Shown: piece after piece, positions 22,239 to 41,378 of the stretch
Numbering within the stretch: the first letter of the stretch is position 1
Layout of the letters: each line of letters starts with the position of its first letter
Assembly (NCBI RefSeq): GCF_025574485.1
Contig: NZ_JAOBPO010000003.1
Span: 473,867-537,866 of the forward strand
DNA length: 64,000 bases
Origin: Kordiimonas aquimaris
GTDB lineage: Bacteria; Pseudomonadota; Alphaproteobacteria; Sphingomonadales; Kordiimonadaceae
Direction: 5' to 3'
Translations under genes and position numbers: made by a program
Notes under the pieces: generated by a model
The model's input: only the letters and a program-made list of their open reading frames with translations
Databases searched by the model: none
What the model was told of the DNA's origin: nothing

Positions 22239-22293
22239 GTGCCGTCTCCCTATCGTGAAAACCAATTGGGGGCGACAAGCGCCCCGTTTTTGA

Positions 22294-23484: not shown

Positions 23485-24405
23485 CTATCCTACTTTTACG
23501 CCAAGTACGGCGGCTGCTTTGGTTACAAATTTCATAGTCTGCTGACCGCCTTGAACAAACTCTTGTTGTCCCTCAGGGTCGGCAACATCAGCAATGGCTG
23601 CACGAACATTTTCCGGCGTCTGCTCATCAGGTGTCAGATAAATGCCGTCAGTTTCATAAACGATAGCTCTGGCGAAACCGCCACCGCCAGCACATAAAAT
23701 AGTGCGATTTGGCGCATCATCGTCGCAGAGAGTAAGAACACCCGCAGTTACTGACTCAGGCGTTAACACATCCAAAGCTTCCTGTGGCATAAGACCTTCT
23801 GTCATACGCGTTGCTGCAGTTGGCGCAAGGCAATTGACGTTAATATTGTATTTGGCGCCTTCAAGGCACAGTGTGTTCATGAAACCAACAAGTGCCATTT
23901 TGGCAGCGCCGTAATTGGCTTGCCCAAAGTTACCGTACAAACCAGAAGAAGACGTCGTCATCACAATACGGCCGTATGCTTGTTCACGCATAATGTCCCA
24001 GACCGCTTTCGTACATGTAACCGCACCCATCACATGAACATTCATGACAAATTCAAAGTCTGACAGGTCCATTTTTACAAATGTTTTGTCGCGCAACACA
24101 CCAGCATTATTGATCAGGATATCAATGCGGCCCCATTTATCCATGGCTTGTTGCACCATGTCGGCCACCTGCTTCGCATCACAGACATTAGCACCGTGCG
24201 CAATAGCTTCACCGCCAGCATCGATTATTTCCTGCACAACCGCCTGTGCAGCGGCAGAAGAACCACCCTGCCCGTGCACATCGCCGCCCAAGTCATTCAC
24301 AACAACTTTTGCGCCGCGCGCCGCCAAGGCAATGGCGTGGCTGCGGCCCAAACCACCGCCAGCGCCTGTTACAATCGCAACCTTACCTTCGTAAGAAATG
24401 CTCAT
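23485..24405 (-). CDS. MFE-2-like 3-hydroxyacyl-CoA dehydrogenase (SDR)
   Basis: This 306-residue SDR is about 50 residues longer than a classical SDR. Its start MSISYEGKVAIVTGAGGGLGRSHA and the VVVNDLGGDVHGQGG segment match the (3R)-hydroxyacyl-CoA dehydrogenase domain of peroxisomal multifunctional enzyme type 2. Catalytic residues sit in TTSSSGLYGNFGQANYGAAK. I start at ATG 24405, spaced six bases from GGAG; an ATG six bases earlier abuts that site. With the adjacent MaoC hydratase it would form a split MFE-2, oxidising (3R)-hydroxyacyl-CoA. The stereochemistry is inferred from family resemblance. Confidence 0.9.
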   Translation of the reverse strand: MSISYEGKVAIVTGAGGGLGRSHAIALAARGAKVVVNDLGGDVHGQGGSSAAAQAVVQEIIDAGGEAIAHGANVCDAKQVADMVQQAMDKWGRIDILINNAGVLRDKTFVKMDLSDFEFVMNVHVMGAVTCTKAVWDIMREQAYGRIVMTTSSSGLYGNFGQANYGAAKMALVGFMNTLCLEGAKYNINVNCLAPTAATRMTEGLMPQEALDVLTPESVTAGVLTLCDDDAPNRTILCAGGGGFARAIVYETDGIYLTPDEQTPENVRAAIADVADPEGQQEFVQGGQQTMKFVTKAAAVLGVKVG

Positions 24406-24439
24406 ACTCATCTCCGAACTTAAATACTAATGGACGGCT

Positions 24440-24904
24440 CTAACCGCCAACAACAACCATAGTAAGCCACTCTGCAATCAATGCAGGGTGCTTTTCATCT
24501 TTGATTTCAATCGTGATTTCGTTTTTGACCAACAAACGATTACCAGGTTTTTCAGTTACTTCGGTCAACTTAACCCGCGCCCGAATTTCACTGTCGACTT
24601 TCACCGGCGCTAAAAAGCGTACCTTGTCACAACCATAGTTAATGCCCATCACAGCACCTTCTACCTGCAGCATACCTTCACCCGCCAAGTGAGACAGTAG
24701 CGACAGCGTCAGAAAACCATGAGCGATCGTCGTACCAAAAGGTGTTTTTGCAGCCGCTTCTTTATCAACATGAATGAATTGATAGTCCTCGGTTACTTCT
24801 GCAAATTTGTTGATACGCTCTTGATCAATCAAGAACCAATCAGACAAACCAGTTTCTTTACCAATGTAATCAGAAAGCTGTTCTTTTGTTACAGTATCTG
24901 TCAT
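24440..24904 (-). CDS. MaoC-family (R)-specific enoyl-CoA hydratase
   Basis: This 154-residue single hot-dog protein carries the hydratase-2 active-site pattern, with Asp and His in EDYQFIHVDKEAA near residue 42 and the following PFGTTIAHGFLTLSL helix. It should hydrate trans-2-enoyl-CoA to the (3R)-hydroxy form. The ATG at 24904 has a full GGAGG site; a GTG two codons earlier overlaps that site. It is first gene of the downstream operon MaoC-SDR-thiolase-QOR, directly behind a set of four operator half-sites. Confidence 0.92.
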   Translation of the reverse strand: MTDTVTKEQLSDYIGKETGLSDWFLIDQERINKFAEVTEDYQFIHVDKEAAAKTPFGTTIAHGFLTLSLLSHLAGEGMLQVEGAVMGINYGCDKVRFLAPVKVDSEIRARVKLTEVTEKPGNRLLVKNEITIEIKDEKHPALIAEWLTMVVVGG

Positions 24905-24986
24905 ATTCACCTCCTGTTACAGCGTAAGATACGCCGTTTTTTCCATGATCAAGTTTTGATTCAGCAATTAGCGATAATCTATTGAA

Positions 24987-25042: not shown

Positions 25043-25858
25043 TTATGGCATTGCAGATAAACCACCATCAAGCGGAATAATACCGCCTGTAATATAGCTT
25101 CCAGCCCGCGAACAAAGCATCAACAACACACCTGCTATATCTTCCGGCTCACCGCATCTGTGCAAGGGCACATTTGCTTCCATCGCACGCCTACGTGCGT
25201 CGTCCTGAATAACATGAGCCATCATGCGACTTGGGAACGGACCGGGTGCAATTGCATTAACGGTTATGTGCATAGAGGCAAATTCATTAGCTAACATTCG
25301 TGTTAAATGATGAATTGCAGCCTTACTGGCACCATAACTATACGCCTGATTAGAAACCGGACGCGTGCCTACAACAGAACCGAGATTTACAACACGCGCA
25401 GGATCATCAGATTTACCAGCTTGCTTCAATAACGGTAAAAGGTGCTTGGTCAGGTCCGCAACAGCCGTAACGTTCAAGGCCATTACAGAATCCCACTTTG
25501 CACGCGGAAACTCTTCAAAAGGTGCACCCCATGTTGTGCCAGAATTGTTAACCAGGATATCCAGTTTGCCTTCACGGTCAGCTAGCTCTTGCGCTAGTGC
25601 TGATGTCCCTTGCTCCGTACTCAGGTCAGCTTGCAGAGCGATTACAGTCCCAGGGCCAGCAGCGTTCAACTCGTCAGCTACAGCCTGACAGCTATCAAGA
25701 CGACGCGACGCAATATAAACCTTACACCCTGCTCGCACGAGCGCTTCGGTGGCCATTGAGCCAATGCCGGATCCACCGCCTGTTACCAGTGCGACCTTGC
25801 CATTAACAGTGAACAAATTGTCCACTGTTAATGTTGTATTTTCACTTACCTCAGACAC
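25043..25858 (-). CDS. SDR-family oxidoreductase of the acyl-CoA cluster
   Basis: This 271-residue classical SDR has TGGGSGIG near residue 26 after a 20-residue N-terminal lead, VNNSGTTWG in place of NNAG, catalytic Ser in LGSVVGT and YSYGASK as the Tyr/Lys motif. It overlaps the end of the ACAD10/11-like gene by 8 bp, so the two are translationally coupled. In the P. putida levulinate route an SDR (LvaD) accompanies the LvaC dehydrogenase, so a 3-hydroxyacyl-CoA dehydrogenase role is a reasonable guess. Many other substrates are possible. Confidence 0.88.
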   Translation of the reverse strand: MSEVSENTTLTVDNLFTVNGKVALVTGGGSGIGSMATEALVRAGCKVYIASRRLDSCQAVADELNAAGPGTVIALQADLSTEQGTSALAQELADREGKLDILVNNSGTTWGAPFEEFPRAKWDSVMALNVTAVADLTKHLLPLLKQAGKSDDPARVVNLGSVVGTRPVSNQAYSYGASKAAIHHLTRMLANEFASMHITVNAIAPGPFPSRMMAHVIQDDARRRAMEANVPLHRCGEPEDIAGVLLMLCSRAGSYITGGIIPLDGGLSAMP

Positions 25859-27083
25859 TATTCGAGCGGTATTTCTTCAGTTCAGTTCGCGCAATCACCA
25901 TGCGGTGCACTGCATCTGGGCCGTCAGCAAACCGCAGCGTGCGCTGACCTGTCCACATCGCTGCGAGCGGGAAATCTTGACTGATACCGCGCCCACCATG
26001 CATCTGCATAGCTTCATCGATAACCTCAAGTGCCATCCGCGGCGCTTGTACCTTAATTTGCGATATATACGGCTGTGCGGCTTGCGTTCCGATCGTGTCC
26101 ATCATGTATGCCGCTTTCAGACACAACAGGCGAGACATCTCAATACTTATACGAGCTTCAGCAATAATATCGTAGTTAGCACCAAGTTTGGCAAGTGGAC
26201 GACCAAATGCTTCGCGTGTTGTTGCACGCTGGCAAAGTAGCTCAAGTGCACGCTCTGCAGCACCGATAGAGCGCATACAGTGATGGATACGGCCTGGGCC
26301 CAAGCGGCCTTGTGAAACTTCAAAGCCAGCACCTTCACCGAGGATCAAATTCCCTTTTGGAACGCGTACATTGGTGAAACGGATATGCATGTGGCCATGC
26401 GGTGCATCGTCATGCCCAAACACCATCATAGGACGCAGTATTTCAATACCGTCCGTTTTAGGGTCAACAAAGATCATGCTGTGCTGGTTCTTGCGCGGCG
26501 TATCTTCACCACCAGTTTTCACCATAACAACATACAGGGCGCAGCGCGGGTCTCCTGCACCTGATGCCCAGTATTTCTCACCATTGAGTACATACTCGTC
26601 ACCGTCCAGAACAGCGCTCATTTCCAGATTTGTTGCGTCTGAAGATGCCACATCAGGTTCTGTCATCAGATAAGCAGAACGGATTTTTCCATCGAGAAGT
26701 GGCTTCAACCATTTATCTTTATGTTCCTGCGTACCATAGCGCTCTATCACTTCCATATTGCCCGTGTCTGGCGCACTGCAGTTAAAGCTCTCTGCTGCCA
26801 AATGAGAGCGACCCATTTCTTCGGCAAGATAAGCATATTCAACAGTCGTAAGGCCAAAACCTGCATCAGAATCCGTTAACCAAAAATTCCAAAGGCCATC
26901 TTTTTTGGCTTCAGATTTAAGGTTCTCAAGGATTTCCGTCATGCGCGCAGTGTAAGCAAAGCGCTCACCATCCTTGCCAACCTCGCTCAGATATTCTTCT
27001 TCAACCGGCATAACCTTTTCGTCAATAAAGCTGCGGATGCGGTCGCGCAGTGCGGTCGCCTTTTTACTTAAACCTAAATCCAT
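25851..27083 (-). CDS. ACAD10/11-like (LvaC-like) acyl-CoA dehydrogenase
   Basis: This 410-residue flavoprotein shows the particular signatures of the ACAD10/ACAD11 dehydrogenase domain: MTEPDVASSDATNLE near residue 140, RLGPGRIHHCMRSIGAAERALE near 265, and MQMHGGRGISQDFPLA near 365. In animals this domain is fused to an APH-like kinase and acts on 4-hydroxyacyl-CoA after phosphorylation; in P. putida LvaC is the separate counterpart. Here the kinase-like partner lies at 37019-38092. The gene overlaps the upstream ligase by one base and the downstream SDR by 8 bp. Substrate assignment is inferred from family and context. Confidence 0.88.
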   Translation of the reverse strand: MDLGLSKKATALRDRIRSFIDEKVMPVEEEYLSEVGKDGERFAYTARMTEILENLKSEAKKDGLWNFWLTDSDAGFGLTTVEYAYLAEEMGRSHLAAESFNCSAPDTGNMEVIERYGTQEHKDKWLKPLLDGKIRSAYLMTEPDVASSDATNLEMSAVLDGDEYVLNGEKYWASGAGDPRCALYVVMVKTGGEDTPRKNQHSMIFVDPKTDGIEILRPMMVFGHDDAPHGHMHIRFTNVRVPKGNLILGEGAGFEVSQGRLGPGRIHHCMRSIGAAERALELLCQRATTREAFGRPLAKLGANYDIIAEARISIEMSRLLCLKAAYMMDTIGTQAAQPYISQIKVQAPRMALEVIDEAMQMHGGRGISQDFPLAAMWTGQRTLRFADGPDAVHRMVIARTELKKYRSNSV

Positions 27084-28819
27084 TACTCATTCCTCTCAGT
27101 TTCAGACCGCCAAAGGTCTTGGTAATATGCTTTGATATTTTTACGATCAATCTTGCCAGACGCGATAAGTGGTAACGGCTCATCGACCAGCCAAATTTGT
27201 GCAGGTAATTTGTAAGCAGCTAGATGCGTCGCTGTTTCTTCAATAATTTTTTCTGGTGTTAATGCAGGATCACTTGTCACCACAACCGTACCGACTATTT
27301 CGCCGAGCATTTTATCCGGCAAAGAGAAAACCATAACATCATCAATGCCTTTGATACCGTGCAGAACACCTTCAACCTCAAGCGAGCTAATGTTCTCGCC
27401 GCCACGGATGATGATATCTTTCAAGCGGTCTACTATGAAAATGTAACCTTCATCGTCAATGTAACCAACATCACCCGTATGGAACCAACCATCATTAAAC
27501 GCCGCTTTCGTTGCAGCAGGATTGTTCCAATACTTCGCAACATTCATGACTGATTTCAGGCAAATCTCACCGCGGTCGCCTGTCACACATTCTTTTCCGT
27601 CATCACCCACTATCTTCACAGACATAAGCGGTGGTGTTGCTCTGCCCACACTGTTTGGGCGTTCAACATATTCTTCACCAGCCAGAAGTGCGCCCATAGC
27701 GTTTGTTTCGGTCAGACCGTACCCAATGCCAGGGTTGGAATTAGGATATTCTTTCTTTATAAGCGCCACATGTTCAGGCGGGCGGGCGGCACCACCGCCG
27801 CCTAATTCACTGAGCGTAGACAGATCATATTTCTTGCGTAATGGATTGGTAGCAAACTCGTAAGACATTGTAGGGACACCGGTAAAGCTGGTCACGCCCT
27901 CTTTTTCAATAAGCTGAAAAGCGTTTTCAACGTCCCACTTGTGCATAATGATCAACTTACGGCCAACAGCCGCAGAAACCATGGCAACCGGCAACAACCC
28001 GGTGACATGGAAAAATGGTACAGCAACCAGCATCACTGGCTGAAAATCAGGATCACTGCTCACTTTGCCCTGCATCTTGAGACAGAGCGCAATCACAATC
28101 CAGTTAAACAAAACGCTGATAACACCGCGGTGTGTTGACGGCGCGCCTTTAGGAAAACCTGTAGACCCAGAGGTATAAAGCATCATGACCACATCATCAG
28201 TGTCCATATCAACCTCAGGCCATGCCATCGGTTTTTTACCTTCAAGAGCTGCATCGAAATCACTCAGACGAGGATGAGACGTGAACTCGTCACGAGCAAC
28301 AATGATCTTGAAATCAAGCTCTTCCGCAGTAGCCATCATATATTCAGCACGGCGGCAATCAGTAACAGCAAGCGCAGCACCACAATCTTTCAGTGCCCAG
28401 TCAAGCTCTTCGCTTTTCCACCAAGCGTTCATCAAAACCGCAATGCCGCCTGACGCAACAATACCCATGTATGCAATAACCCATTCAGGATAATTACGCA
28501 TAGCCAGCGCAACACGATCACCTTTTTTGACACCATAATCATCGACCAAAGCCTGAGCAAATTGGCTGGCTTTCTCAATGGTTTGAGCGAAAGTCAGACG
28601 CGTGTCTCCGTACACAAGATACTCTCTGTCACCGTGACCATAAAACATCATCAACGCATCACGCATTGTTGCCGGTTGGTGAGCGAAAACCGTCTGCATA
28701 CGACCATTCACCTCTGCTTCGGTTGTGGCAAAAGGCATTGTCGGCGTTGTCAGCATCGCGATCAAATCATCGATCGGTGTCGCCGGATCTACTTCCGGTA
28801 GTTGCAAGTTCTCAAGCAT
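27083..28819 (-). CDS. Acyl-CoA synthetase (AMP-binding enzyme)
   Basis: This 578-residue class I adenylate-forming enzyme activates a carboxylic acid to its CoA thioester. The P-loop MMLYTSGSTGFPKGAPSTH lies near residue 210, IGYGLTETNAMG near 365, and WFHTGDVGYIDDEGYIFIVDRLKD near 465. The C-terminal catalytic lysine is in IASGKIDRKNIK. It sits between the small ACAD subunit and the ACAD10/11-like gene, as a pathway-entry ligase would. Its substrate could be a hydroxy, branched or cyclic acid; the sequence does not decide. Confidence 0.92.
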   Translation of the reverse strand: MLENLQLPEVDPATPIDDLIAMLTTPTMPFATTEAEVNGRMQTVFAHQPATMRDALMMFYGHGDREYLVYGDTRLTFAQTIEKASQFAQALVDDYGVKKGDRVALAMRNYPEWVIAYMGIVASGGIAVLMNAWWKSEELDWALKDCGAALAVTDCRRAEYMMATAEELDFKIIVARDEFTSHPRLSDFDAALEGKKPMAWPEVDMDTDDVVMMLYTSGSTGFPKGAPSTHRGVISVLFNWIVIALCLKMQGKVSSDPDFQPVMLVAVPFFHVTGLLPVAMVSAAVGRKLIIMHKWDVENAFQLIEKEGVTSFTGVPTMSYEFATNPLRKKYDLSTLSELGGGGAARPPEHVALIKKEYPNSNPGIGYGLTETNAMGALLAGEEYVERPNSVGRATPPLMSVKIVGDDGKECVTGDRGEICLKSVMNVAKYWNNPAATKAAFNDGWFHTGDVGYIDDEGYIFIVDRLKDIIIRGGENISSLEVEGVLHGIKGIDDVMVFSLPDKMLGEIVGTVVVTSDPALTPEKIIEETATHLAAYKLPAQIWLVDEPLPLIASGKIDRKNIKAYYQDLWRSETERNE

Positions 28820-28857
28820 TGTCTCTCCCCGAACAATTCATCGAACAGTTAAAAATC

Positions 28858-29994
28858 CTAGTAACTAGAGCATGTGGCAAAACGATCAGTGTGGAAATTA
28901 CTATCGCCCAAGAACTGTTGTAAAATTCTGGCTCGTTTGATGTAAAAACCAATATCGAACTCATCAGTCATGCCGATGCCGCCATGCATCTGTATCGCTT
29001 CATTAGTCGCGAGTTCCGCCGTTTTAGATGCTTTAGCCTTAGCAAGGCTTGCGAACCAGCGAATATCACCACCAGTATCAGCCATCTGCATCGCTTTAAG
29101 CACTGCAGATCGTGTTAACTCTATTTCACTGAATAGATGCGCTGCACGATGTTGCAGACCCTGAAATGTACCGATCAAAACACCAAATTGCTTGCGTTCT
29201 TGCAAGTATTTTACTGTTTGATCCAAACACTCTTGCGCTACACCTAAAAGCTCAGCTGCAACAATGATACGAGCACGGTCTAATGCAGGCTCAATCAAAC
29301 TCAATCCCTCATCTGCGGCACCGAGCATAGCGTCAGACGAAACTGTCACACTCTCAAAGGTTACTTTAGCCCAATTGCGGCTATCCGTCATCACGGTCCT
29401 GTCGACGATCAATCCCGAAGCGCCCTTTTCAACGAGGAACAAGCTAACACCGCCGCTTTCGCCTGCTTCACCGGATGTACGGGCAGCTACAATAATCGTA
29501 TCAGCGACATGACCATCGCAAACGAAGGTTTTCAGACCGCTTAGTGTGTAGCCACTGTCTGTTTTAATTGCTTTAAGTGCTATTTTATCGGGGTTGTGGT
29601 GAGCACCCTCATCAATCGCCAAAGTCACAATCTTCTCGCCAGATGCTATCTGTGGCAACAAATCTGATTTCTGCTCATCACTGCCTGCGGCTTCAATCAC
29701 TGACGCTGCGATAACAGCGCTGGACAGATACGGTGAAGCAGATAGCGTTTTACCCATCGCTTCAGCAACAATACCTGCGCCAACAACACCGAAATTAACG
29801 CCGCCATTATCTTCATCAACGAGCAGTCCGGCAAAACCCATTTCGCTCATCTCTACCCATAACTCTTTCGAATAGCCCACTTCATCACGGTTATCACGCA
29901 GCGCACGCAACTGGCTTACAGGTGCTTTTTCAGCTAAAAAGCCTTCTGCAGAATCTTTGAGTAGTTGCTGCTCTTCACTTAAAACTAATGCCAC
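28858..29994 (-). CDS. Acyl-CoA dehydrogenase, small-subunit type
   Basis: This 378-residue acyl-CoA dehydrogenase resembles the small partner of heteromeric enzymes such as the pimeloyl-CoA or steroid side-chain dehydrogenases. The substrate-loop motif is degenerate (LAIDEGAH rather than xTEPxAGSD), while the FAD-contacting ERKQFGVLIGTFQGLQHR and IQMHGGIGMTDEF are kept. The usual catalytic EGT motif is absent, replaced by a short tail with LGDSNFHTDR. It starts 12 bp after the large-subunit gene, and I infer that both form one alpha2beta2 flavoenzyme. Confidence 0.87.
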   Translation of the reverse strand: MALVLSEEQQLLKDSAEGFLAEKAPVSQLRALRDNRDEVGYSKELWVEMSEMGFAGLLVDEDNGGVNFGVVGAGIVAEAMGKTLSASPYLSSAVIAASVIEAAGSDEQKSDLLPQIASGEKIVTLAIDEGAHHNPDKIALKAIKTDSGYTLSGLKTFVCDGHVADTIIVAARTSGEAGESGGVSLFLVEKGASGLIVDRTVMTDSRNWAKVTFESVTVSSDAMLGAADEGLSLIEPALDRARIIVAAELLGVAQECLDQTVKYLQERKQFGVLIGTFQGLQHRAAHLFSEIELTRSAVLKAMQMADTGGDIRWFASLAKAKASKTAELATNEAIQMHGGIGMTDEFDIGFYIKRARILQQFLGDSNFHTDRFATCSSY

Positions 29995-30006
29995 AATCTG
30001 TACTCC

Positions 30007-31194
30007 TTACGCCGGTAAATCTAGAATGCGTTTTGATATGATATTGAGTTGCACTTCAGACGTGCCGCCCTCAATAGAATTGGCTTTCGTCCGCAACCAG
30101 TTGCGCGCAATATCGCCTTCGTTGGAATATTGCCCTTCCCACTCCAGTGCATCAGAACCATTCACTTTCAGGATCATCTCATGTCGCTGTTTATTAAGTT
30201 CAGTGCCGTAATATTTAAGCATTGACGAAAAGGCGCCGATATCGCCGCCAGCCTTGGCCTCGTCTTTGGCACGCTCTAGCGTGAACATAAAAGCAGCGGC
30301 ATCAATCTCGTGCTCTGCAATCTGGTGGCGCAGCATTGTCTCTGAAATTTGCCCGTCATCGCTAAGACCAAGTTTATCTTTGGCGAGCATATTGAGCGGC
30401 GTTGGAACCCCCATGTCGCTAATACCGGTACGCTCATGCGTCAAAAGATATTTCGCAATAGTCCAGCCCTTATTTTCTTCACCAACAAGGTTGGATTTCA
30501 GTGCGATCGCATTGTCGAAAAACGTCTCACAGAAGGGAGAATTACCTGAAATAAGCTTGATAGGCTTTGTTGAGACACCTTCCTGATCCATATCAAACAG
30601 AACAAAACTGATACCATGATGTTTTGATCCGGTATTGTCTGTACGCACCAGACAGAATATCCAGTCAGCCTTGTCAGCATAGGAAGTCCAAACCTTTTGC
30701 CCGTTAAGAACATAATGGTCTCCTTTGTCTTCCGCCTTAGTCGCCAAAGAAGCCAAATCTGAGCCAGCGTTGGGCTCTGAATACCCTTGGCACCAACGAA
30801 TTTCACCGCGTGCGATTTTCGGAAGGTGCTCAAGCTTTTGTTCGTGTGTCCCAAATTTCAAAAGAGCGGGACCAAGCATCCATATGCCAAATGATACTAG
30901 CGGGCTTTTGGCTTTCACCCTGCGAAGTTCAGATGCAAGAACCTTCGCTTCAGCATTAGACAGTCCAGCGCCGCCGTATTCAGTAGGCCATGTGGGCACA
31001 GTCCACCCTTTTGAGGCCATGCGGTCCAGCCATAATTTTTGATCTTCAGACTTGAATTCAAAATTACGGCCACCCCAGCATACATCGTCTTCACCAGAGG
31101 CAAGTCCACCAGTTGCGCTAGCACGCATAGACATTGGACAATTTTCCTCTAGCCAGCTACGAACCTCATTGCGAAAACCATCTAAATCAGCCAT
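30007..31194 (-). CDS. Acyl-CoA dehydrogenase, large-subunit type
   Basis: This 395-residue acyl-CoA dehydrogenase keeps the canonical substrate motif GYSEPNAGSDLASL near residue 130 and WTSYADKADW, but the position of the usual catalytic glutamate reads IEGGTSEVQLNIIS, with Gly replacing Glu immediately before GT and a Glu one residue earlier. This arrangement is typical of the large chain of heteromeric ACADs. I start at ATG 31194, with GAGGGAG upstream; the longer frame begins in non-coding sequence. It is first in the upstream operon of the acyl-CoA block and diverges from a MATE transporter. Confidence 0.88.
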   Translation of the reverse strand: MADLDGFRNEVRSWLEENCPMSMRASATGGLASGEDDVCWGGRNFEFKSEDQKLWLDRMASKGWTVPTWPTEYGGAGLSNAEAKVLASELRRVKAKSPLVSFGIWMLGPALLKFGTHEQKLEHLPKIARGEIRWCQGYSEPNAGSDLASLATKAEDKGDHYVLNGQKVWTSYADKADWIFCLVRTDNTGSKHHGISFVLFDMDQEGVSTKPIKLISGNSPFCETFFDNAIALKSNLVGEENKGWTIAKYLLTHERTGISDMGVPTPLNMLAKDKLGLSDDGQISETMLRHQIAEHEIDAAAFMFTLERAKDEAKAGGDIGAFSSMLKYYGTELNKQRHEMILKVNGSDALEWEGQYSNEGDIARNWLRTKANSIEGGTSEVQLNIISKRILDLPA

Positions 31195-31217
31195 TGAATA
31201 CTCCCTCACTCGACAGC

Positions 31218-31237
31218 GATCAATTAAGTGATTGATC
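31218..31237. promoter_or_regulatory. Inverted repeat upstream of the ACAD operon
   Basis: GATCAAT (31218-31224) and ATTGATC (31231-31237) form a perfect 7-bp inverted repeat with a six-base spacer, starting 23 bp upstream of the ACAD large-subunit start codon. It does not match the ACGAATCA sites before the MaoC operon, so a different regulator is implied if it is functional. Confidence 0.4.
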
Positions 31238-31411
31238 ACCCACACGCTGTTGAAATTGACAAAACCTAATCACAAGATTTTTTTGTTTCACAAGTGACAT
31301 CGTTCACAGACGGACTAAGTCAAGCAAACGAAGATAATTATATTGTAATTATCGCAATTTTAACGCTACGGCTCTCTGGAGTTCGTGCAACGACTGACTT
31401 TAAAGGGCAAT

Positions 31412-32851
31412 ATGGCAAGGCTTACACAAGAAAACGCCTTATCTCAAAATAAGGTATGGCGACTGGCAGGCCCTAATATCATCAGTAATATTCTGATGGT
31501 TTCTATTTCGTTCGCGCATCTTTGGATTGTTGCACCCTTTGGCTCGGAAATGAGCGCTGCAGTTGTCACTGGCGGTCGCATACACTTTCTCCTTATGTCA
31601 GCGGCTATGGCGTTATCTGTGGCTACAACAGCAATTGTTGCACGTGCATGGGGCGCCGAAGATACCAAACATGCATCGGCTGCTACAACCAGCTCGTTAA
31701 TTTTAGCAATGCTTATTTCGCTCCTTCTCGGTGCGATCACATTCTTTTTTGCTGAACAGATCATTGGTTTCTTCAAACTTGACCCGGTTTCCAATACGCT
31801 CGCCATAGCCTATGTGAAGCCCGCCGCCATATTGAATGTTCTATTTGCACTTGTTCTCACCACAGCAACTGCTTTTCGGGCCATTGGCGATGTGGTGCGG
31901 CCACTACAATATAGCGCCTTTGCAACCGCTATAGGCATTGCCGGTTCATATATATTTATGCATGGTAGTTTAGGTTTGCCAAAACTTGGCATTGCAGGCA
32001 TTCCATGGGGTACAGCTGCCGGGCAAGCATGTGTATTGCTTTGGTTCAGCGTATGGTGGCTTCTGAAGAAGTACCGGTTAGTTCCAGTTGGAAGCGCATT
32101 ATTTGACATGCGCATATTGAAAAACCTGATCGTGATCGGTGCGCCTGCAGCACTTGAGCAGGTGATTATACAAACCAGTTTTGTGTTATTTATGGTGCTT
32201 GTCGCTGATTATGGAACCAATGCGTTCGCTGCATATGGCATTGGTATTACGATTTTAAGCATATGTATCGTTGTTGGCATGGGGTTTGGCGCAGCAAGCG
32301 CCGCACTATCAGGACAGAACCTTGGTGCAAGAAACCCTGAAGCAGCCCGCGCCAATGGGTGGCTGTCAATGAAAATGGCCACGATCAGCATGTCTATTAT
32401 CGCAGTAGTAACGCTGATATTCAGAGAACCTTTAGCTGCCTTACTTTCGATTGACCCAGACGTTCAGCAATATACAGCAAACTTCATTATTATATTGGCG
32501 ATCATTCAACCACTGATGGCGATCGAGTTTGCCATTGGTAGTGCCTTGCGGGGCTGCGGAGAAACTCGCTTCCCGCTTTTCGTCACATTCACCGGCGTTA
32601 TTGTTGGCCGTTTCAGTTTCGGCTATATGGTCATATTACTGGACGGCCCTGTAGAAGCAATGTACGCGGTAATCATCGCTGACTATGCTATTAAGGCACT
32701 TATGCTCGTGCTCAGGTTTCGATCAGATCGGTGGCTTAAATCATCAGATCACGCCCCTCTACCTGTTCAATCCGTGGCAGGCTTTGTTCGCACGTCAGTT
32801 CGCTCATACTTTGGCAAACGCACGGACAAAAACGACAATTTAAGTAACTGA
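31412..32851 (+). CDS. MATE-family efflux transporter
   Basis: This 479-residue membrane protein has about twelve hydrophobic helices and MATE family features, including the internal-repeat regions around GGRIHFLLMSAAMALSVAT and YGIGITILSICIVVGMGFGAA. MATE proteins expel drugs, cations or metabolites using sodium or proton gradients. I prefer the ATG at 31412, with AAGGG upstream, over a GTG nine codons earlier. The polar C-terminal tail of about 45 residues is unremarkable. Cargo is unknown; the position beside catabolic genes may hint at export of toxic acids or alcohols, but that is speculative. Confidence 0.9.
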   Translation: MARLTQENALSQNKVWRLAGPNIISNILMVSISFAHLWIVAPFGSEMSAAVVTGGRIHFLLMSAAMALSVATTAIVARAWGAEDTKHASAATTSSLILAMLISLLLGAITFFFAEQIIGFFKLDPVSNTLAIAYVKPAAILNVLFALVLTTATAFRAIGDVVRPLQYSAFATAIGIAGSYIFMHGSLGLPKLGIAGIPWGTAAGQACVLLWFSVWWLLKKYRLVPVGSALFDMRILKNLIVIGAPAALEQVIIQTSFVLFMVLVADYGTNAFAAYGIGITILSICIVVGMGFGAASAALSGQNLGARNPEAARANGWLSMKMATISMSIIAVVTLIFREPLAALLSIDPDVQQYTANFIIILAIIQPLMAIEFAIGSALRGCGETRFPLFVTFTGVIVGRFSFGYMVILLDGPVEAMYAVIIADYAIKALMLVLRFRSDRWLKSSDHAPLPVQSVAGFVRTSVRSYFGKRTDKNDNLSN

Positions 32852-32883
32852 TTTACTACTTCGTTTGGACCTGATCAGTTTTT
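32846..32883 (+). terminator. Possible terminator after the MATE gene
   Basis: AACTGAT (32846-32852, overlapping the stop codon) pairs with ATCAGTT (32874-32880), and TTT continues the T run. The loop is 21 bases, so folding is only moderately convincing. Confidence 0.45.
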
Positions 32884-32943
32884 GCTCTAAATCGAAGAAC
32901 AGATACATGTATGAATATGTGCAGCAATGCAAAGGAGACCAGT

Positions 32944-33723
32944 ATGAGTACGCCGGGTGTTATGGATATACCATCTGTTAAAGATCAAGTTAGCGAAGAA
33001 GAATGGCAGGCACGAGTTGATCTGGCTGCTGCTTATCGCATGTGTGCACATTACGGTTGGGATGACCTGATCTACACCCATTTGTCAGCCCGTGTACCTG
33101 GCGGCGATCATCACTTCCTTATCAATCCGCTTGGTCTGATGTTCGAAGAAATGACCGCATCCAGTCTGATCAAAGTGGACCTGTCAGGCAAAGCGTTGAT
33201 GGAAACACCTTTTATCCCAAATGCCGCAGGCTTCGTTATACACAGTGCAATCCATGCTGCCCGCGAAGATGCAGGCTGCGTGATACATCTACATACTGAC
33301 TATGGCATTGCAGTATCTAATCTCGCATCTGGTCTGGAACCACTTTGCCAATCATCAATACCGCCGCATTCTACCATTGCATATCATGACTATGAGGGTT
33401 TTGCCGTTAACGACGGTGAACAGGAGCGACTTGTTACAGATATTGGTGACGCTCGTGCATTAATCCTGCGCAATCACGGAACGCTAACCGTTGGTGAAAC
33501 AATTCCACAAGCATTTGAATTGATGTTCTTCCTTGAAAAAGCCTGCAAAACGCAAATCCTTACCAGGGCAACAGGCATGCCGCTTTATGCACCCAGCGAG
33601 GAATCCATGAGCAATGCTATTCGTGATGTTCAGGTAGTTGCTGGCGCACGCGGAGCGGACAACTTCGTTTGGCCTGCTATTCTACGCAAGCTGGATCGTG
33701 CTGATACCAGTTACCGAACGTAA
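32944..33723 (+). CDS. Class II aldolase/adducin family protein
   Basis: This 259-residue protein has the class II aldolase/adducin fold. Metal-binding histidines are visible in VIHLHTDYGIAV near residue 115, and another in LRNHGTLTVGE near residue 180; HLSARVPGGDHHFLINPLG occupies the substrate-loop region. The ATG at 32944 has a strong AAAGGAGA site; the upstream in-frame ATG has none. Members of this adducin-like group lack a firm function, and some are aldolases of sugar phosphates or hydroxy acids. It is followed 10 bp later by tesB. Confidence 0.88.
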   Translation: MSTPGVMDIPSVKDQVSEEEWQARVDLAAAYRMCAHYGWDDLIYTHLSARVPGGDHHFLINPLGLMFEEMTASSLIKVDLSGKALMETPFIPNAAGFVIHSAIHAAREDAGCVIHLHTDYGIAVSNLASGLEPLCQSSIPPHSTIAYHDYEGFAVNDGEQERLVTDIGDARALILRNHGTLTVGETIPQAFELMFFLEKACKTQILTRATGMPLYAPSEESMSNAIRDVQVVAGARGADNFVWPAILRKLDRADTSYRT

Positions 33724-33733
33724 AAGAGTATTT

Positions 33734-34603
33734 ATGACCTCAGTTTCACAAGTGATTAGCTCACTTTCTCTGACAAAGCTGGATAAGCTACTGTTTAGTG
33801 GTAATCCAAACGACTGGCCGAACCGACATGTTTTTGGCGGCCACGTTGCCGCACAAGCAATGGAAGCGGCAGAACGCACTATTGAACCTGAATACAGTCT
33901 GCATTCTTTTCACAGCCATTTTCTCCGCCCCGGCATTGCAGGCCAACCGATCATTTATGACGTTGACCCTATCAGGGACGGGCGCAGCTTTGCGACACGC
34001 TTGGTCGTTGCCAAGCAAAACGGCGAAGCCATATTTACGCTCGCTGCTTCCTTTCATGTTGGCGAAGACGGTATTGAGCATCAAATCGATATGCCTGATG
34101 TACCGCAGCCAGAAGACCTGGATGATGATGAAGCATACTATTCCCGTGTATTGAAAGCTTTTGCCAGCAAAGGAAAAGAACGCCCGTTTTTTCCTTTTGA
34201 AACCCGCGCTATCAAACGCATGAACATTGATGACCCCAAGCCCGAGAACCCGGTAACTGGTTATTGGTTAAAGTTAAAAGAAACAACAAACGATGACCAA
34301 AAACTTCATCGCCGGCTACTTGCGTACATATCTGACTTCGCTTTTCTGTCATCAAACCTGCGCCCTCATGCCATGATCCCTCGGGATCCAAAGCTCAAAA
34401 CTGTTGCCAGCCTTGACCATGCTATGTGGTTTCATGCCGATAATTTTCGCGTTGATGACTGGATTTATTATAAGACCGAAGGATACTGGACAGGTAAAGG
34501 GCGCGGTCTTGCCCGCGGCGCACTTTATGCACGCGACGGTCGCCTTTTAGCGTCAACCGCACAGGAAAGCTTACTAAGATTAAAACCGCAGGAATCAAAA
34601 TAG
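33734..34603 (+). CDS. tesB: Acyl-CoA thioesterase II
   Basis: This 289-residue double hot-dog thioesterase hydrolyses acyl-CoA to free acid and CoA. The catalytic triad positions known from E. coli TesB are represented: Asp in YISDFAFL, Ser where Thr is usual in VASLDHAMW, and Gln in STAQESLLR. I start at ATG 33734 because the longer frame overlaps the upstream gene. It probably forms a two-gene unit with the aldolase-like gene. The Thr-to-Ser change keeps a hydroxyl, so activity is expected. Confidence 0.92.
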   Translation: MTSVSQVISSLSLTKLDKLLFSGNPNDWPNRHVFGGHVAAQAMEAAERTIEPEYSLHSFHSHFLRPGIAGQPIIYDVDPIRDGRSFATRLVVAKQNGEAIFTLAASFHVGEDGIEHQIDMPDVPQPEDLDDDEAYYSRVLKAFASKGKERPFFPFETRAIKRMNIDDPKPENPVTGYWLKLKETTNDDQKLHRRLLAYISDFAFLSSNLRPHAMIPRDPKLKTVASLDHAMWFHADNFRVDDWIYYKTEGYWTGKGRGLARGALYARDGRLLASTAQESLLRLKPQESK

Positions 34604-34703
34604 CAATCTTAGGTTTAGTTTTTACAACATTGCATAGACGAAGAACTTTAACTAAGCAGTAGCTTGTATTGAGTACAGTTTCAGTCTCTGTTTAGGTACA
34701 TAC

Positions 34704-36074
34704 GTGCTAAGTAATATAGATCTCATTTATCGTGAGCAATTGAAACAAGTTAAAGCAACCTGCATTGCCCAATCGGCAATGGTGCCGGCTTGGGCTTTGG
34801 TATTTGTTTTACTGATTAGTGGCATTTTTCCGGCCATCGGTGATGTGGCGATCAATCGTCTCTCGTTGTTTATGTTTCTTATCGTTGGCTGGGGAATAAC
34901 TTCATATACTGTCGGGACAAGTGTCGACAAATGGCTTGCCGCAGACAAAATAGACACTGCCTCTAAAGTAATTATCACATTATTTTTGATAAACGGGCTA
35001 ATTGGTGGCTTTGGCTTCTGGTTATTCTGGGTGGAAGGTCATCTAACATCAAACCTGTTCTTATGTATGGTTATGCTGGTTATTGTTAGTGTTTACTCAA
35101 TTGAACTGAATATCTATATGCCCGGATTTACTGCCGGGCTCTCAAGTCTTGCAATCCTTATATTTGCGCGCCTTGTGACCAGCGAGAATGAAGTTGCAAA
35201 TGTTTTTGCCTTCATTGTCCCACCAATGATCGCATGGTATTTCTATATGGGGATCCGAGGGAACCGTATTATTATATCTCACATAAGCACACGAATTGAA
35301 AAAGAAGCCTTAAACGACGAACTATGTGCCACAACCAAATACCTGAAGAAAACTCTTACTGAGGCCGAGGTTGCCAGCAAAACCAAAGATACATTTTTTG
35401 CAAGTATGAGTCATGATTTGCAAACACCACTCAATGCGATTTCGGGCTTTAATCAAGTTTTACATCGCCAGATATTCGGCCCTCTCAACGAGAAACAGCG
35501 CGAATATACAGACCACATTCAAGAAGCAACACATCATCTACAAACATTGATCAAAGATGTTCTAACAATATCATCACTTCGCTCAGGTGAATATGCGGTT
35601 ACATGCAAAAAAACTGACCTTAGAATTCCGATACAAAAAGCGATAGGTATCCTTTTGGGTGCCCATCCGAACGCGGAACACCAATTGACAACTGATATAC
35701 CAGATACGCCTGTTTGGGCTGATATTGATGCAGATCGGTTTATAGAATGCGTGCTGAATTTGCTAACCAATGCAGTGAAATACACGCCTGAGAAAGCACC
35801 TATCTCTATTTTGGTTGAGGTAGGCAATCCGTATCATCAAGTCCATATTATCGATTCCGGTGAAGGTATGTCTGAAGAAGACATCGAAGCCGCGTACAAA
35901 CCTTTCTCACGGATCAAAACATCTTCGAGTTCAGGTAAGCAGGGAACGGGCCTCGGGCTGTCTATCGTCAAACAACTGATCGAGAAGCAAAATGGTAAAT
36001 TCAATTTGATCACACAAAAAAGTGGCGGCATACGCGCCACACTTCATGCCCTTGCCGCTAAAGAAGTTCCGTAG
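34704..36074 (+). CDS. Membrane sensor histidine kinase
   Basis: This 456-residue kinase has five or six membrane helices in residues 25-185, a short coiled coil (about 195-225), a HisKA domain with phospho-acceptor H237 in SMSHDLQTPLNA and a HATPase domain (N box LNLLTNAVKYTP, G1 DSGEGM, G2 GTGLGLSIVKQL). There is no receiver domain. The start is GTG with only a weak upstream site. The integral membrane sensor could detect membrane state or a lipophilic ligand. No response regulator is adjacent, so it is an orphan. Confidence 0.9.
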   Translation: MLSNIDLIYREQLKQVKATCIAQSAMVPAWALVFVLLISGIFPAIGDVAINRLSLFMFLIVGWGITSYTVGTSVDKWLAADKIDTASKVIITLFLINGLIGGFGFWLFWVEGHLTSNLFLCMVMLVIVSVYSIELNIYMPGFTAGLSSLAILIFARLVTSENEVANVFAFIVPPMIAWYFYMGIRGNRIIISHISTRIEKEALNDELCATTKYLKKTLTEAEVASKTKDTFFASMSHDLQTPLNAISGFNQVLHRQIFGPLNEKQREYTDHIQEATHHLQTLIKDVLTISSLRSGEYAVTCKKTDLRIPIQKAIGILLGAHPNAEHQLTTDIPDTPVWADIDADRFIECVLNLLTNAVKYTPEKAPISILVEVGNPYHQVHIIDSGEGMSEEDIEAAYKPFSRIKTSSSSGKQGTGLGLSIVKQLIEKQNGKFNLITQKSGGIRATLHALAAKEVP

Positions 36075-36103
36075 TCATAAACACAGGCTACTCTATCGTA
36101 TCC

Positions 36104-36811
36104 TTAATGTGCTTTGGATGCTTTTTTACGTCGCCAAACAACATAGCGCACCTCGGCACCGCTCAATATATTACGCCGCAAGCCTGAGCCAGACTTAACA
36201 ATGCCCAGGGTCTTTAGTGCCATTTTCTTTTGATTGTACTCGGGTTCCCATTTTTCAAGCTCAAGATAGCTTTTACGGATTTGCTGTGCCGTTTCCTGAC
36301 TAACGTCATAGTTGCCGGCAAGAGAAAAATATTTACTCAGAGTATTCTGGCGCGTTGGAAGTTTATTCGAAACCTGCGAATACACCAGATACCCCCCAGG
36401 GCGCACCATGGCTTGAACATTTTCTGTCCATTCCTGATTTTCTCTAAACGCGCGCAGATCGTCCATGCAAAACAGCGCATGAAAACGCTTTTTGCCGCGC
36501 ATAATAGGATCATTAAGATGTTTGTTCGGGTAAATCTTTACCGCAGCATTATCTCTGAACGTGTGCTCCAGGTGATCAAGACATTCCGTACGACCCTCGT
36601 AAGCATCAACAACAAATCCGCGCGAGGATAATGTTTTTACCAAACGTCCGCCACCAGGACCAATAACACCAATATGAGCCCGGTCAGGTAAATCACTGAA
36701 CATTGCCATAGTGTCAATAATGTCCAAGCTTAATGGACGTTCACAATAATCCATATTTTGGCCATTGAACATTAAGTCCAACGCCATTGAAAAAGCTAAT
36801 CTCTCACTCAT
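36104..36811 (-). CDS. SAM-dependent methyltransferase-like protein of unknown function
   Basis: This 235-residue protein resembles a class I methyltransferase fold. A glycine-rich motif I, IGVIGPGGGRLVKTL (about residues 47-61), is followed by an acidic end of strand 2 (VDAYEGR), the FHALFCMDDLRAF motif near 115 and a post-motif VRPGGYLVYSQVSN near 140. The C-terminus is lysine and arginine rich. I do not recognise a characterised family, and neither SAM use nor substrate is proven. It stands alone, converging on the histidine kinase gene 29 bp away. Confidence 0.6.
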   Translation of the reverse strand: MSERLAFSMALDLMFNGQNMDYCERPLSLDIIDTMAMFSDLPDRAHIGVIGPGGGRLVKTLSSRGFVVDAYEGRTECLDHLEHTFRDNAAVKIYPNKHLNDPIMRGKKRFHALFCMDDLRAFRENQEWTENVQAMVRPGGYLVYSQVSNKLPTRQNTLSKYFSLAGNYDVSQETAQQIRKSYLELEKWEPEYNQKKMALKTLGIVKSGSGLRRNILSGAEVRYVVWRRKKASKAH

Positions 36812-36969
36812 AAATCGACACGCTCCTGCACTGGTTATGGGTCACCCCAACAGTGTGGATATAGCGCCCCTTTCCCCGAGCGAAAACCACGACAAAACTA
36901 TGCTGCCAAACACAATGACTTCATACGGCATAATGTTGAAAGTACAAATATTTACAGATAAATAGATTA

Positions 36970-36985
36970 AAACTTTATGAAGTTT
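36970..36985 (-). terminator. Weak hairpin after the APH-kinase gene
   Basis: AAACTT and AAGTTT form a six-base stem with a four-base loop, 33 bp downstream of the last gene of the 42833-37019 operon. On the minus strand the stem runs into TTTTAATC. It is AT-rich and weak. Confidence 0.35.
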
Positions 36986-37018
36986 ACATCACAACTTAGT
37001 CAGCATAGATTATCGCCG

Positions 37019-38092
37019 TCAGATATTGGACTTCTCAATCAACTGTCGTGCGTAATTCCCAAGCACATTGGTGCGCTCACCAAATACAGCAAACGTCGGG
37101 TTCTTGCTTTGACCATGATAGTACCGATAATAAATCTGCTGAATGATTACCGCTAAGCGGAACACACCGTATACCATATAATAGTCAAAATTGGAGAGAT
37201 CGTAGCCGGTTCTTTCCGCGTACATGTCACAGATTTCACGCCGTGTCAGCATGCCCGGGGCATAGCTTGGTTGCGAGCGGAACATCTTCATATCATCAGG
37301 GTCATCAGCTTGTGTCCAATAGGCAAGCGTGTTGCCTAAATCCATTAAAGGATCACCAAGAGCGCTGATCTCCCAATCAAGAACTGCGATGATATCGAAC
37401 GGATTTTCTTCAGACAGAATCACATTATCAAGACGGTAATCACCATGCAGAATTGAATGGCCTACCTCACCTTTAGGCATGTTTGTTTCCAACCAGGAAC
37501 GCACATCCTCAAAGCTTTCCACGTCATCAGTGATAGCTTTTTCGTACCGACCGTTCCAACCAAGCACTTGGCGTGAAACATACCCTTCAGGGCGGCCAAA
37601 ATCACCGAGACCGATCGCTTTATAATCAACACGATGCAAATCAATCAATTTATCAAAAAATGAAATGCATAACTTGCGCCCCTCGTCTTCACCAAAGTTC
37701 CAGGCTTTAGGGATATCCCGGTCCAGCTTGCGGCCGTCCACTTGTTCCATCACGTAAAACTCAGCTCCAAGCGGGCTGTCTTCGTCACCCACATGGAAAA
37801 AAGTCTCGGGAACAGAGGAAAACACAGGCTTCAGTGCATTCATTACACTGAATTCCCTGATCATGCTGTGGCCAGATTTTGGCCGCGTTCCATGCGGCGG
37901 GCGGCGCAGCACCAAATTACGATTTTCATACTGAAGCGAATACGTCAGGTTGGAATGACCGCTGGCAAATTGTCGAATGGTTGGCACGCCTATAAGGCCT
38001 GTAATACGCTCTTTAACAAACGCATCAACAACAGCAATATCCAACTCTTCGCCTTCACGTATCTTAACTGTCTTATTCAGTTCTTCGGTCAT
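37019..38092 (-). CDS. APH-fold phosphotransferase (LvaA / ACAD10-11 kinase-like)
   Basis: This 357-residue protein has the aminoglycoside-phosphotransferase kinase fold. The catalytic loop is HGDYRLDN (H216, D218, N223) and the metal-binding motif is LDWE with D239. The same family gives the kinase domain of ACAD10/ACAD11 and P. putida LvaA, which phosphorylate the 4-hydroxyl of 4-hydroxyacyl-CoA. The GDPLMDLGNTLAYW sequence after the DWE motif fits that subgroup. It is last in an operon with alcohol and aldehyde dehydrogenases, thioesterase and SDRs, so it is a catabolic kinase and not a drug-resistance gene. Confidence 0.87.
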   Translation of the reverse strand: MTEELNKTVKIREGEELDIAVVDAFVKERITGLIGVPTIRQFASGHSNLTYSLQYENRNLVLRRPPHGTRPKSGHSMIREFSVMNALKPVFSSVPETFFHVGDEDSPLGAEFYVMEQVDGRKLDRDIPKAWNFGEDEGRKLCISFFDKLIDLHRVDYKAIGLGDFGRPEGYVSRQVLGWNGRYEKAITDDVESFEDVRSWLETNMPKGEVGHSILHGDYRLDNVILSEENPFDIIAVLDWEISALGDPLMDLGNTLAYWTQADDPDDMKMFRSQPSYAPGMLTRREICDMYAERTGYDLSNFDYYMVYGVFRLAVIIQQIYYRYYHGQSKNPTFAVFGERTNVLGNYARQLIEKSNI

Positions 38093-38145: not shown

Positions 38146-38913
38146 TTAAGCCGTATGGCCACCGTCCATCACAAGTGTTGTGCCTGTTGTAAATGCAGCA
38201 GCGTCTGATGCCAGATACAATACACCACCAACCATATCATCAGGCTGACCAGCACGCGGAATTGGAAATGTATCAGTATATTTTTTCAACTGATCTTCAT
38301 TTGACGTAAATACCTGTGTCATTTTCGTTTCTACAAGACCTGGGCAAATCGCATTTACGCGGATACCCATTGGACCGTATTCACATGCAAACGCCTTGGT
38401 CATGTTAATCATGGCAGATTTGGTCATGGAATATACACCCTGCAGTGCACCTGGTGTAATGCCATTAATGGATGCAACATTCACAATCGCGCCAGCGCCT
38501 TGTTCTTTCATCATTTTAACCGCATGAGATGACAGGTAGAACGGCCCTTTCAGATTTACGTCAATCGTTTTATCAAACGCAGCTTCAGGTGTGTCGCCGA
38601 TCAAACCATAAAACGGGTTTGTGCCACTACAATTAACCAACACATCAAGGCGTCCATACTCTGCCTGTATCCAATCGAAAATGGCAGTTACATCTTCCAT
38701 TTTACCAGCATGGGCTGCTTTAGCGGTTGCTTTGCCGCCATCTGCGCGAATGCTCTCCGCAACTTTTTCACAAGCAGTCTGATCACGAGAAGATACAATA
38801 ACTTCTGCACCATTGGCAGCAAACGCACGCACAACAGCTTCACCGATACCACGTGAAGAACCACTGACAAAAACAACCTTGTCAGAGAAATCCATGAGTT
38901 TTGTATAATCCAT
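38146..38913 (-). CDS. SDR-family oxidoreductase
   Basis: This 255-residue classical SDR has VSGSSRGIG near residue 17, VNCSGTNPF in place of NNAG, catalytic Ser in VASINGI and YSMTK for Tyr/Lys. The C-terminal TGTTLVMDGGH is standard. It starts with a GGAG site and lies 11 bp after a second SDR and 53 bp before the APH kinase. In the levulinate pathway an SDR follows the kinase/dehydrogenase steps, so oxidation of a 3-hydroxyacyl-CoA is possible. Confidence 0.9.
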   Translation of the reverse strand: MDYTKLMDFSDKVVFVSGSSRGIGEAVVRAFAANGAEVIVSSRDQTACEKVAESIRADGGKATAKAAHAGKMEDVTAIFDWIQAEYGRLDVLVNCSGTNPFYGLIGDTPEAAFDKTIDVNLKGPFYLSSHAVKMMKEQGAGAIVNVASINGITPGALQGVYSMTKSAMINMTKAFACEYGPMGIRVNAICPGLVETKMTQVFTSNEDQLKKYTDTFPIPRAGQPDDMVGGVLYLASDAAAFTTGTTLVMDGGHTA

Positions 38914-39764: not shown

Positions 39765-40205
39765 TTATACGCTTAAGGCAATCGCCTCCAGCTGCGCTCT
39801 CATCGTCTCAGGTATTGATGTGGGGCGGCGCGTCTCTCTGTCCACATAAACATGTACAAAAAAACCTTCTGCGGCAGCTTCCTGCTGTTCGTCAATAAAC
39901 AAACCAATTTCATAGCGTACGCTGGATTTACCAATATGACTAACTGCAACGCATGCCAACACTGATTGAGGGAAAGTTATAGAGGCATGATAACGGCACC
40001 CTGTTTCGACCACTAAACCAATAGTCTCCCCAGCATGAATATCCAGAATGCCCTTATTAATCAGGAATTGATTAACAGCAGTATCAAAGAAGCTATAATA
40101 ATTGACGTTATTGACATGCCCATAAACATCATTATCCATCCACCGTGTCGGGATGGTTTGTTTGTATCCGTACACTTTTCGAGATCTGGTTTCTTGCTTC
40201 ACCAC
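39765..40205 (-). CDS. Acyl-CoA thioesterase, 4HBT type
   Basis: This 146-residue single hot-dog protein has the 4-hydroxybenzoyl-CoA thioesterase/YbgC pattern, with DNDVYGHVNNVNYYSFFDTAV near residue 25 carrying the active-site Asp. It starts with GTG and overlaps the end of the iron alcohol dehydrogenase gene by 7 bp, so it is translationally coupled. A housekeeping role in removing dead-end acyl-CoA or releasing a pathway acid is likely. Exact substrate is unknown. Confidence 0.9.
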   Translation of the reverse strand: MVKQETRSRKVYGYKQTIPTRWMDNDVYGHVNNVNYYSFFDTAVNQFLINKGILDIHAGETIGLVVETGCRYHASITFPQSVLACVAVSHIGKSSVRYEIGLFIDEQQEAAAEGFFVHVYVDRETRRPTSIPETMRAQLEAIALSV

Positions 40206-41353: not shown

Positions 41354-41378
41354 AATCGCCTCTTTTGAGTCGACCATT

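Follow-up and report, generated by a model that had tools for sequence, protein, structure and literature searches.

Does a Kordiimonas genome encode, as two separate genes, the reaction of the vertebrate proteins ACAD10 and ACAD11, which brings 4-hydroxyacyl-CoA into beta-oxidation? The question is raised by a stretch of 64,000 nucleotides from Kordiimonas aquimaris (contig NZ_JAOBPO010000003.1; hereafter the window), which belongs to a Kordiimonas-type genome of 3.81 Mb in 26 contigs. An acyl-CoA dehydrogenase (ACAD)-fold protein and an APH-fold kinase are encoded there in different gene runs, and a first-pass annotation, made from the letters alone, regarded them as a split 4-hydroxyacyl-CoA pathway of unreported layout. 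Sequence comparison suggests, with a probability of roughly 0.7, that the pair represents the ACAD10/11 reaction in two-gene form, and the earlier interpretation is supported in part.

Identity of the two proteins

Both open frames exist exactly at 25851–27083 and 37019–38092, as given in the first-pass annotation, and their translations contain the motifs named for them (MTEPDVASSDATN and RLGPGRIHHCMR; HGDYRLDN and LDWE). The domain assignments are also borne out by Pfam, with Acyl-CoA_dh domains (best E 3e-35) in the former and APH (E 1e-40) in the latter.

The best matches of the dehydrogenase in the PDB are 4hr3 (440 bits, 53% identity) and ACAD11 (2wbi, 8v3u, and 8v3v, 411–416 bits), with 50% identity to mouse ACAD11. 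Its closest named relatives are Kordiimonas and Kordiimonadaceae records (88% identity). The residues around the 4-phosphate should be noted. In ACAD11, R626, H634, and R637 contact the 4-phosphate and D753 is the catalytic base (Rashan et al., PMC12440821). In the alignment with mouse ACAD11, where the chain numbering was taken one below that of the paper, R626, R631, H634, R637, and D753 correspond to R260, R265, H268, R271, and D387 in the window protein, so that all five residues are kept. The two conventional ACADs of the same run, AcadS and AcadL, served as controls and keep only the general R631. In the ACAD tree, built by a quick method with long outgroup branches and with relatives admitted only if the motif was present, the window protein falls, like mouse ACAD11 and 4hr3, within one branch of 38 rows (SH-aLRT 99), and the LvaC-type proteins lie outside. 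Used as a query against the genome, the dehydrogenase gives no second protein of its type, the next match being 30% identical. Judged by branch and residues, the protein is a clear member of the ACAD10/11 family.

The best PDB matches of the kinase are 9o56 (284 bits, 41% identity), 3dxp (165 bits, 31%), and ACAD11 (152–156 bits, 31% to the mouse kinase domain), whereas its identity to LvaA-type kinases is 21–24%. The best PDB matches of both proteins exceed chance by a wide margin. The catalytic D220 and N225 of ACAD11 are kept as D218 and N223. The arginine residues R86 and R176 of the ACAD11-type kinase contact CoA (PMC12440821). R176 is kept as R174, and the Arg beside the αC Glu is also kept (R79-E80), though the R86 of the paper and the mapped position 84 disagree.

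In the kinase tree, one branch (100/99) unites the ACAD11 kinase with 3dxp, a protein of a Sphingobium plasmid, kinases of Rhodobacterales, and some of those from Pseudomonas. The window kinase clusters with kinases of Kordiimonadaceae and Robiginitomaculaceae (88/99), and Pseudomonas and Azospirillum kinases stand near this group with weak support (43/30). The approximately unbiased test rejects a grouping of the window-kinase set, chosen after the first tree, with only some members of the ACAD11 branch (p-AU 1e-37) but does not reject its placement as sister of the branch in its entirety (p-AU 0.10). This careful tree was made without the kinases of five loci (L078, L131, L148, L167, and L188) that the earlier kinase tree had included. 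The genome's four further APH genes were dropped as an outgroup, since they give no match to the kinase profile at E 1e-15; likewise, a genome search with the kinase returns only itself and retrieves none of these other four of the five APH matches. By the tree and the identities, the kinase is thus a relative outside the ACAD11-kinase branch and far from LvaA, perhaps the sister of that branch.

Family, branch, intact residues, and, by search, a single copy of each gene are established here. The first-pass description of both proteins as ACAD10/11-like with intact catalytic residues holds. Its own check, whether the two proteins fall in unrelated subfamilies, has a mixed outcome: the dehydrogenase lies in the ACAD11 branch, and the kinase lies outside the ACAD11-kinase branch, with the sister position not rejected.

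Co-occurrence and linkage of the two genes

Both genes are present in 26 of the 29 family genomes searched. In 23 of the 26 they lie on the same contig, always on the same strand with the kinase upstream, at distances from 35 to 19,867 bp (9.9 kb in the window); in the remaining three, whose assemblies are broken into 170 to 410 contigs, the genes are found on different ones. One family genome (G034) lacks most of the genes in between, and only 35 bp separate the kinase from the dehydrogenase that follows it. The separation of about 10 kb in the window is a local feature.

Outside the family, the kinase is found in the order kinase-AcadL-AcadS-ACAD11-type on one strand in five loci (L118, L127, L130, L131, and L173) and immediately before the ACAD11-type gene, again on the same strand, in four (L128, L132, L159, and L161). 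These nine loci belong to Robiginitomaculaceae and unplaced Caulobacterales. Their kinases are 52–60% identical to that of the window; seven of the nine loci were placed in the earlier kinase tree, and L130 and L132 were assigned by identity.

Among the best 80 named dehydrogenase loci, a kinase is found within 10 kb or less on each side in 28, where many of the loci span less than 10 kb on each side and in one of them, a family member (L108), the kinase lies just outside. For the 52 loci with no kinase nearby, 30 genomes were tested, and a kinase of the superfamily is encoded elsewhere in 20 of 22 and in 7 of 8 Pseudomonas. Three of the kinases found in those 22 genomes are 44–51% identical to that of the window, and the other best matches are 31–37% identical. 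The two genes are adjacent on Sphingobium and Azospirillum plasmids and about 1 kb apart on a Deinococcus plasmid; on Cupriavidus necator pHG1, no kinase is listed beside the dehydrogenase homologue.

Over the 296 genomes of the order, with thresholds of E 1e-100 for the dehydrogenase and 1e-40 for the kinase, both genes are present in 236, only the dehydrogenase in 6, only the kinase in 14, and neither in 40. The co-occurrence that the first-pass annotation proposed to look for is observed, with adjacency in several groups. Co-occurrence and conserved linkage are established, and a functional link between the two genes is well supported.

Both proteins have close relatives that are widespread in Pseudomonas, where they are likewise encoded by separate genes. 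A kinase match at E 1e-5 is found in 155 of 159 genomes, with 49–54% identity among the matches listed. In the 59 genomes searched with both proteins, 57 have both, one has only the kinase, and one has neither, and the dehydrogenases in these 57 are 58–61% identical to that of the window. The pair differs from that of the window in that the two genes are not neighbours. In all 7 Pseudomonas loci examined, the kinase has as its neighbour an SDR (short-chain dehydrogenase/reductase) 51–52% identical to SDRb, which adjoins the kinase in the window. The two-locus arrangement therefore exists in a well-studied genus, and the layout of the window is no oddity. We know of no function for this near-universal Pseudomonas pair. 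A second Pseudomonas ACAD (48% identity, two genomes) was considered as a candidate LvaC, and in L205, one of its two loci, its surroundings are not an lva operon.

Nine more adjoining kinase-ACAD pairs were observed in Pseudomonas (L212–L220), 28–36% identical to the window pair, with the key motif kept in 7 of 7 dehydrogenases checked. By sequence, these pairs are taken as further branches of the same system. In eight loci of Porticoccaceae/SAR92, the block AcadL-AcadS-ACAD11-type-SDR-MDR (medium-chain dehydrogenase/reductase) has an iron-containing alcohol dehydrogenase and a 4HBT thioesterase upstream, and SDRc also in six of the eight, with no kinase within the sequence covered. The genes of both Kordiimonas runs thus stand together in these marine gammaproteobacteria.

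The proposed reaction and its alternatives

We infer the reaction, the order of its steps, and the roles of the neighbours from the sequences, and the proposed scheme follows the mammalian mechanism (PMC12440821, PMC11342911). The 4-hydroxyacyl-CoA would come from the acyl-CoA ligase or from beta-oxidation of a longer hydroxy acid. The APH-fold kinase would phosphorylate the 4-hydroxy group, and the ACAD11-type enzyme, using FAD with no net oxidation, would eliminate the phosphate to give 2-enoyl-CoA. Beta-oxidation may then be completed by three enzymes encoded in the same block, the MaoC hydratase, the SDR dehydrogenase, and the thiolase. Interconversion of the 4-oxo and 4-hydroxy forms, the role of LvaD (PMC6692424), may fall to SDRb or SDRc.

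Several observations weigh against this two-gene ACAD10/11 reading. The window kinase is excluded from the branch of the ACAD11 kinase and 3dxp (100/99), and to our knowledge there is no assay of any member of its group, so that the substrate, and even the product, could differ. In Sphingobium and Rhodobacterales, the kinase next to the dehydrogenase is a member of the ACAD11-kinase branch, and the Deinococcus kinase groups with 9o56; these neighbours come from other branches and therefore support pairing at the level of the superfamily, not pairing of the window's own kinase. In Pseudomonas, the two genes share a contig in 30 of 56 genomes, the nearest being 22.6 kb apart. The order-wide co-occurrence tracks shared ancestry, and the Fisher value ignores relatedness. 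A synteny comparison of G001 and 19 family genomes finds the block conserved as far as PNPO and DnaJ in 17 of the 20, which marks it as old in its entirety, so that the linkage within the family is partly inherited gene order and is weak evidence.

A more specific suggestion, which we offer as speculative and rather improbable, is that the kinase represents a further group of 4-hydroxyacyl-CoA kinases (Kordiimonadaceae, Robiginitomaculaceae, and perhaps Pseudomonas and Azospirillum). The kinase and the ACAD11-type eliminase would then form part of an operon devoted to beta-oxidation, along with AcadL and AcadS (perhaps a heteromeric dehydrogenase), MaoC, SDR, MDR, and thiolase. Such an operon could act on bulky or branched gamma-hydroxylated acids, with the pair removing the block formed by the 4-hydroxy group.

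The position of the kinase outside the ACAD11-kinase branch would also fit two enzymes acting on different substrates, with the eliminase served by another kinase and the window kinase acting on a product of the alcohol/aldehyde operon. The kinase indeed stands in the other run with an aldehyde dehydrogenase, an iron-containing alcohol dehydrogenase, and a thioesterase, and the Pseudomonas kinase stays with SDRb, not with the ACAD. However, the search with the window kinase retrieves from the genome no second kinase of this type, and kinases of the same group stand directly before the ACAD11-type gene or in a tight run with it in the Robiginitomaculaceae relatives and G034. We consider separate substrates unlikely.

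The levulinate (4-oxopentanoate) pathway, in the form of an alphaproteobacterial lva operon, is suggested by the kinase, ACAD, SDRs, and ligases all lying within the region, and the Lva operon of Pseudomonas putida (LvaA–LvaE) shares with the window the logic of kinase, ACAD-fold eliminase, SDR, and ligase as separate genes, with the same key residues in the dehydrogenase. In contrast, the identity to lva-type proteins is only 21–24% (kinase) and 33% (dehydrogenase), the branches are far off, and the layout differs, with the window kinase and dehydrogenase in separate operons. The lva-type references are five Pseudomonas operons (L221, L222, L223, L224, and L226) recognized not by name but by the layout kinase, 118-aa frame, ACAD, SDR, and ligase, which agrees with the lva genes set out in PMC6692424. 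A passage in Paquay et al. speaks against this assignment; either its figures are of another kind or the LvaC of P. putida KT2440 differs. A search of the window and of 20 related blocks with the 118-aa frames of these operons, which are LvaB-like, gives nothing with E under 0.4. Identity, tree, and LvaB search thus rule against the levulinate pathway, which we regard as highly improbable, and the window pair is not the LvaA/LvaC pair. The first-pass remark that an LvaB-like partner is missing is correct in that none was detected, but this has little meaning, since the pair is not lva-type and an operon that lacks lvaB, the P. citronellolis LA18T cluster, is already published (PMC6692424).

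Least probable of all is an ordinary redox acyl-CoA dehydrogenase with a functionally meaningless resemblance to ACAD11: the usual ACAD domains and the two conventional ACADs in the same run would allow it, but the catalytic Asp of the DGP motif and the R-x4-R-x2-H-x2-R cluster, which are tied to phosphate elimination in ACAD11 (PMC12440821), are kept in the protein and, as a set, absent from AcadS and AcadL.

The two-gene ACAD10/11 reading is also to be compared with the known systems. The vertebrate comparison rests on ACAD11, as ACAD10 is absent from the alignments. Vertebrate ACAD11 is predicted to share with the window pair the same two-step reaction, and the likeness extends over both the dehydrogenase with its active-site residues and the kinase domain with its catalytic residues. 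The vertebrate proteins are fused, whereas the window has separate frames in two gene runs with a kinase of another branch. Separate ACAD10-like kinase and dehydrogenase orthologues of Burkholderia pseudomallei have been assayed, and each is able to replace an ACAD10 domain (PMC11342911). The bacterial kinases in that paper are up to 51% (ACAD10) and 38% (ACAD11) identical, compared with 31% between the window kinase and the mouse ACAD11 kinase.

The split as such, put forward as a novelty in the first-pass annotation, is not new. P. putida lvaA, lvaC, and lvaD are separate genes, LvaB is a protein of about 12 kDa, and lvaABCD homologues occur across alpha-, beta-, and gammaproteobacteria (PMC6692424, citing Rand 2017). 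Separate genes, their spread over the three classes, and the lvaB-less operon are thus already published (PMC11342911, PMC6692424). The finding is real and mostly expected, since separate genes are normal for bacteria. Possibly new are the kinase branch of the window and the beta-oxidation operon around the kinase/eliminase step; in the open-licence literature searched, we found no study of this kinase group, of the AcadL/AcadS operon, or of Kordiimonas genes of this type, and the relevant papers deal with the mammalian enzymes or with levulinate. Bacteria may thus possess counterparts of the ACAD11 reaction (assigned in mammals in 2024–2025) in which the kinase partner is a different one and which are conserved within a family. 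Since almost every Pseudomonas sampled has relatives of the two proteins, genetically easy hosts are at hand for testing the native role and substrate of the phosphorylation-elimination.

An observation on a different operon may be added here. In a Pseudomonas operon of the P. citronellolis type (L225 in genome G370; kinase, histidine-phosphatase-like frame, ACAD, and SDR), a 124-aa frame with an LvaB-like ending 'ISNPKA' directly follows the kinase (7721–8095, plus strand).

Oleate hydratase yields 10-hydroxystearate and hence 4-hydroxy acids. As a source, this route is unsupported, since no MCRA family match is found in the genome.

Gene runs of the window

The operon contexts described in the first pass are confirmed. 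The dehydrogenase belongs to a minus-strand, operon-like run (31245–25043) of AcadL, AcadS, an AMP ligase, the ACAD11-type protein, and an SDR, followed downstream by MaoC, SDR, thiolase, and MDR genes. The kinase ends a second minus-strand run (42833–37019), with the aldehyde dehydrogenase, iron-containing alcohol dehydrogenase, 4HBT thioesterase, and two SDRs upstream. Four plus-strand genes and one minus-strand gene lie between the runs.

Table 1. Genes of the two runs and of the interval between them (window coordinates)
Feature	Position	Strand	Remarks
ACAD10/11-type dehydrogenase-fold enzyme	25851..27083	-	410 aa, ATG; putative FAD-dependent 4-phosphoacyl-CoA eliminase
APH-fold kinase	37019..38092	-	357 aa, ATG; putative 4-hydroxyacyl-CoA kinase
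SDRb	38146..38913	-	adjoins kinase; kept beside it in the 7 Pseudomonas loci and in Robiginitomaculaceae relatives
SDRc	38925..39728	-	among the few genes remaining by the pair in G034; candidate for 4-oxo/4-hydroxy interconversion
4HBT-type thioesterase	39765..40205	-	
Iron-containing alcohol dehydrogenase	40199..41377	-	
Aldehyde dehydrogenase	41379..42833	-	first gene of the kinase run
AcadL, conventional ACAD	30007..31245	-	nearest PDB chains Tcur3483 (6wy9, 6wy8); 4-phospho residues absent
AcadS, conventional ACAD	28858..29994	-	4-phospho residues absent
Acyl-CoA ligase (AMP ligase)	27083..28819	-	1-base overlap with ACAD11-type gene
SDRa	25043..25858	-	8-base overlap with ACAD11-type gene
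MaoC-type hydratase	24440..24910	-	
SDR, candidate 3-hydroxyacyl-CoA dehydrogenase	23485..24411	-	nearest model PRK07791, below its cut-off
Thiolase	22294..23475	-	slightly above NF005494 cut-off
MDR-type oxidoreductase	21264..22265	-	near ACAD11-type gene in many relatives
MATE, class II aldolase, TesB, histidine kinase	31385..36074	+	four opposite-strand genes dividing the two runs

Catabolism of a steroid side chain was considered as a possible function, in view of two matches: the best PDB match of AcadL is Tcur3483 (164 bits), which has a steroid role, and the best NCBIfam match of the ligase is steroid-24-oyl-CoA synthetase (386 bits against a cut-off of 750).

The minus-strand gene between the runs (36104–36811), which follows the kinase, encodes a 235-aa protein with no Pfam match and a weak match to UbiG methyltransferase; in some of the family genomes compared, no counterpart was found. 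A terminator-like stem with a T run lies at 36040–36022. The promoter and terminator scan of the window gives numbers near those of shuffled sequences (33 against 31.7 and 25 against 19.1) and is of weak help. Away from both runs, a minus-strand gene (12126–14315) encodes a 729-aa protein with RTX calcium-binding repeats toward its C-terminal end.

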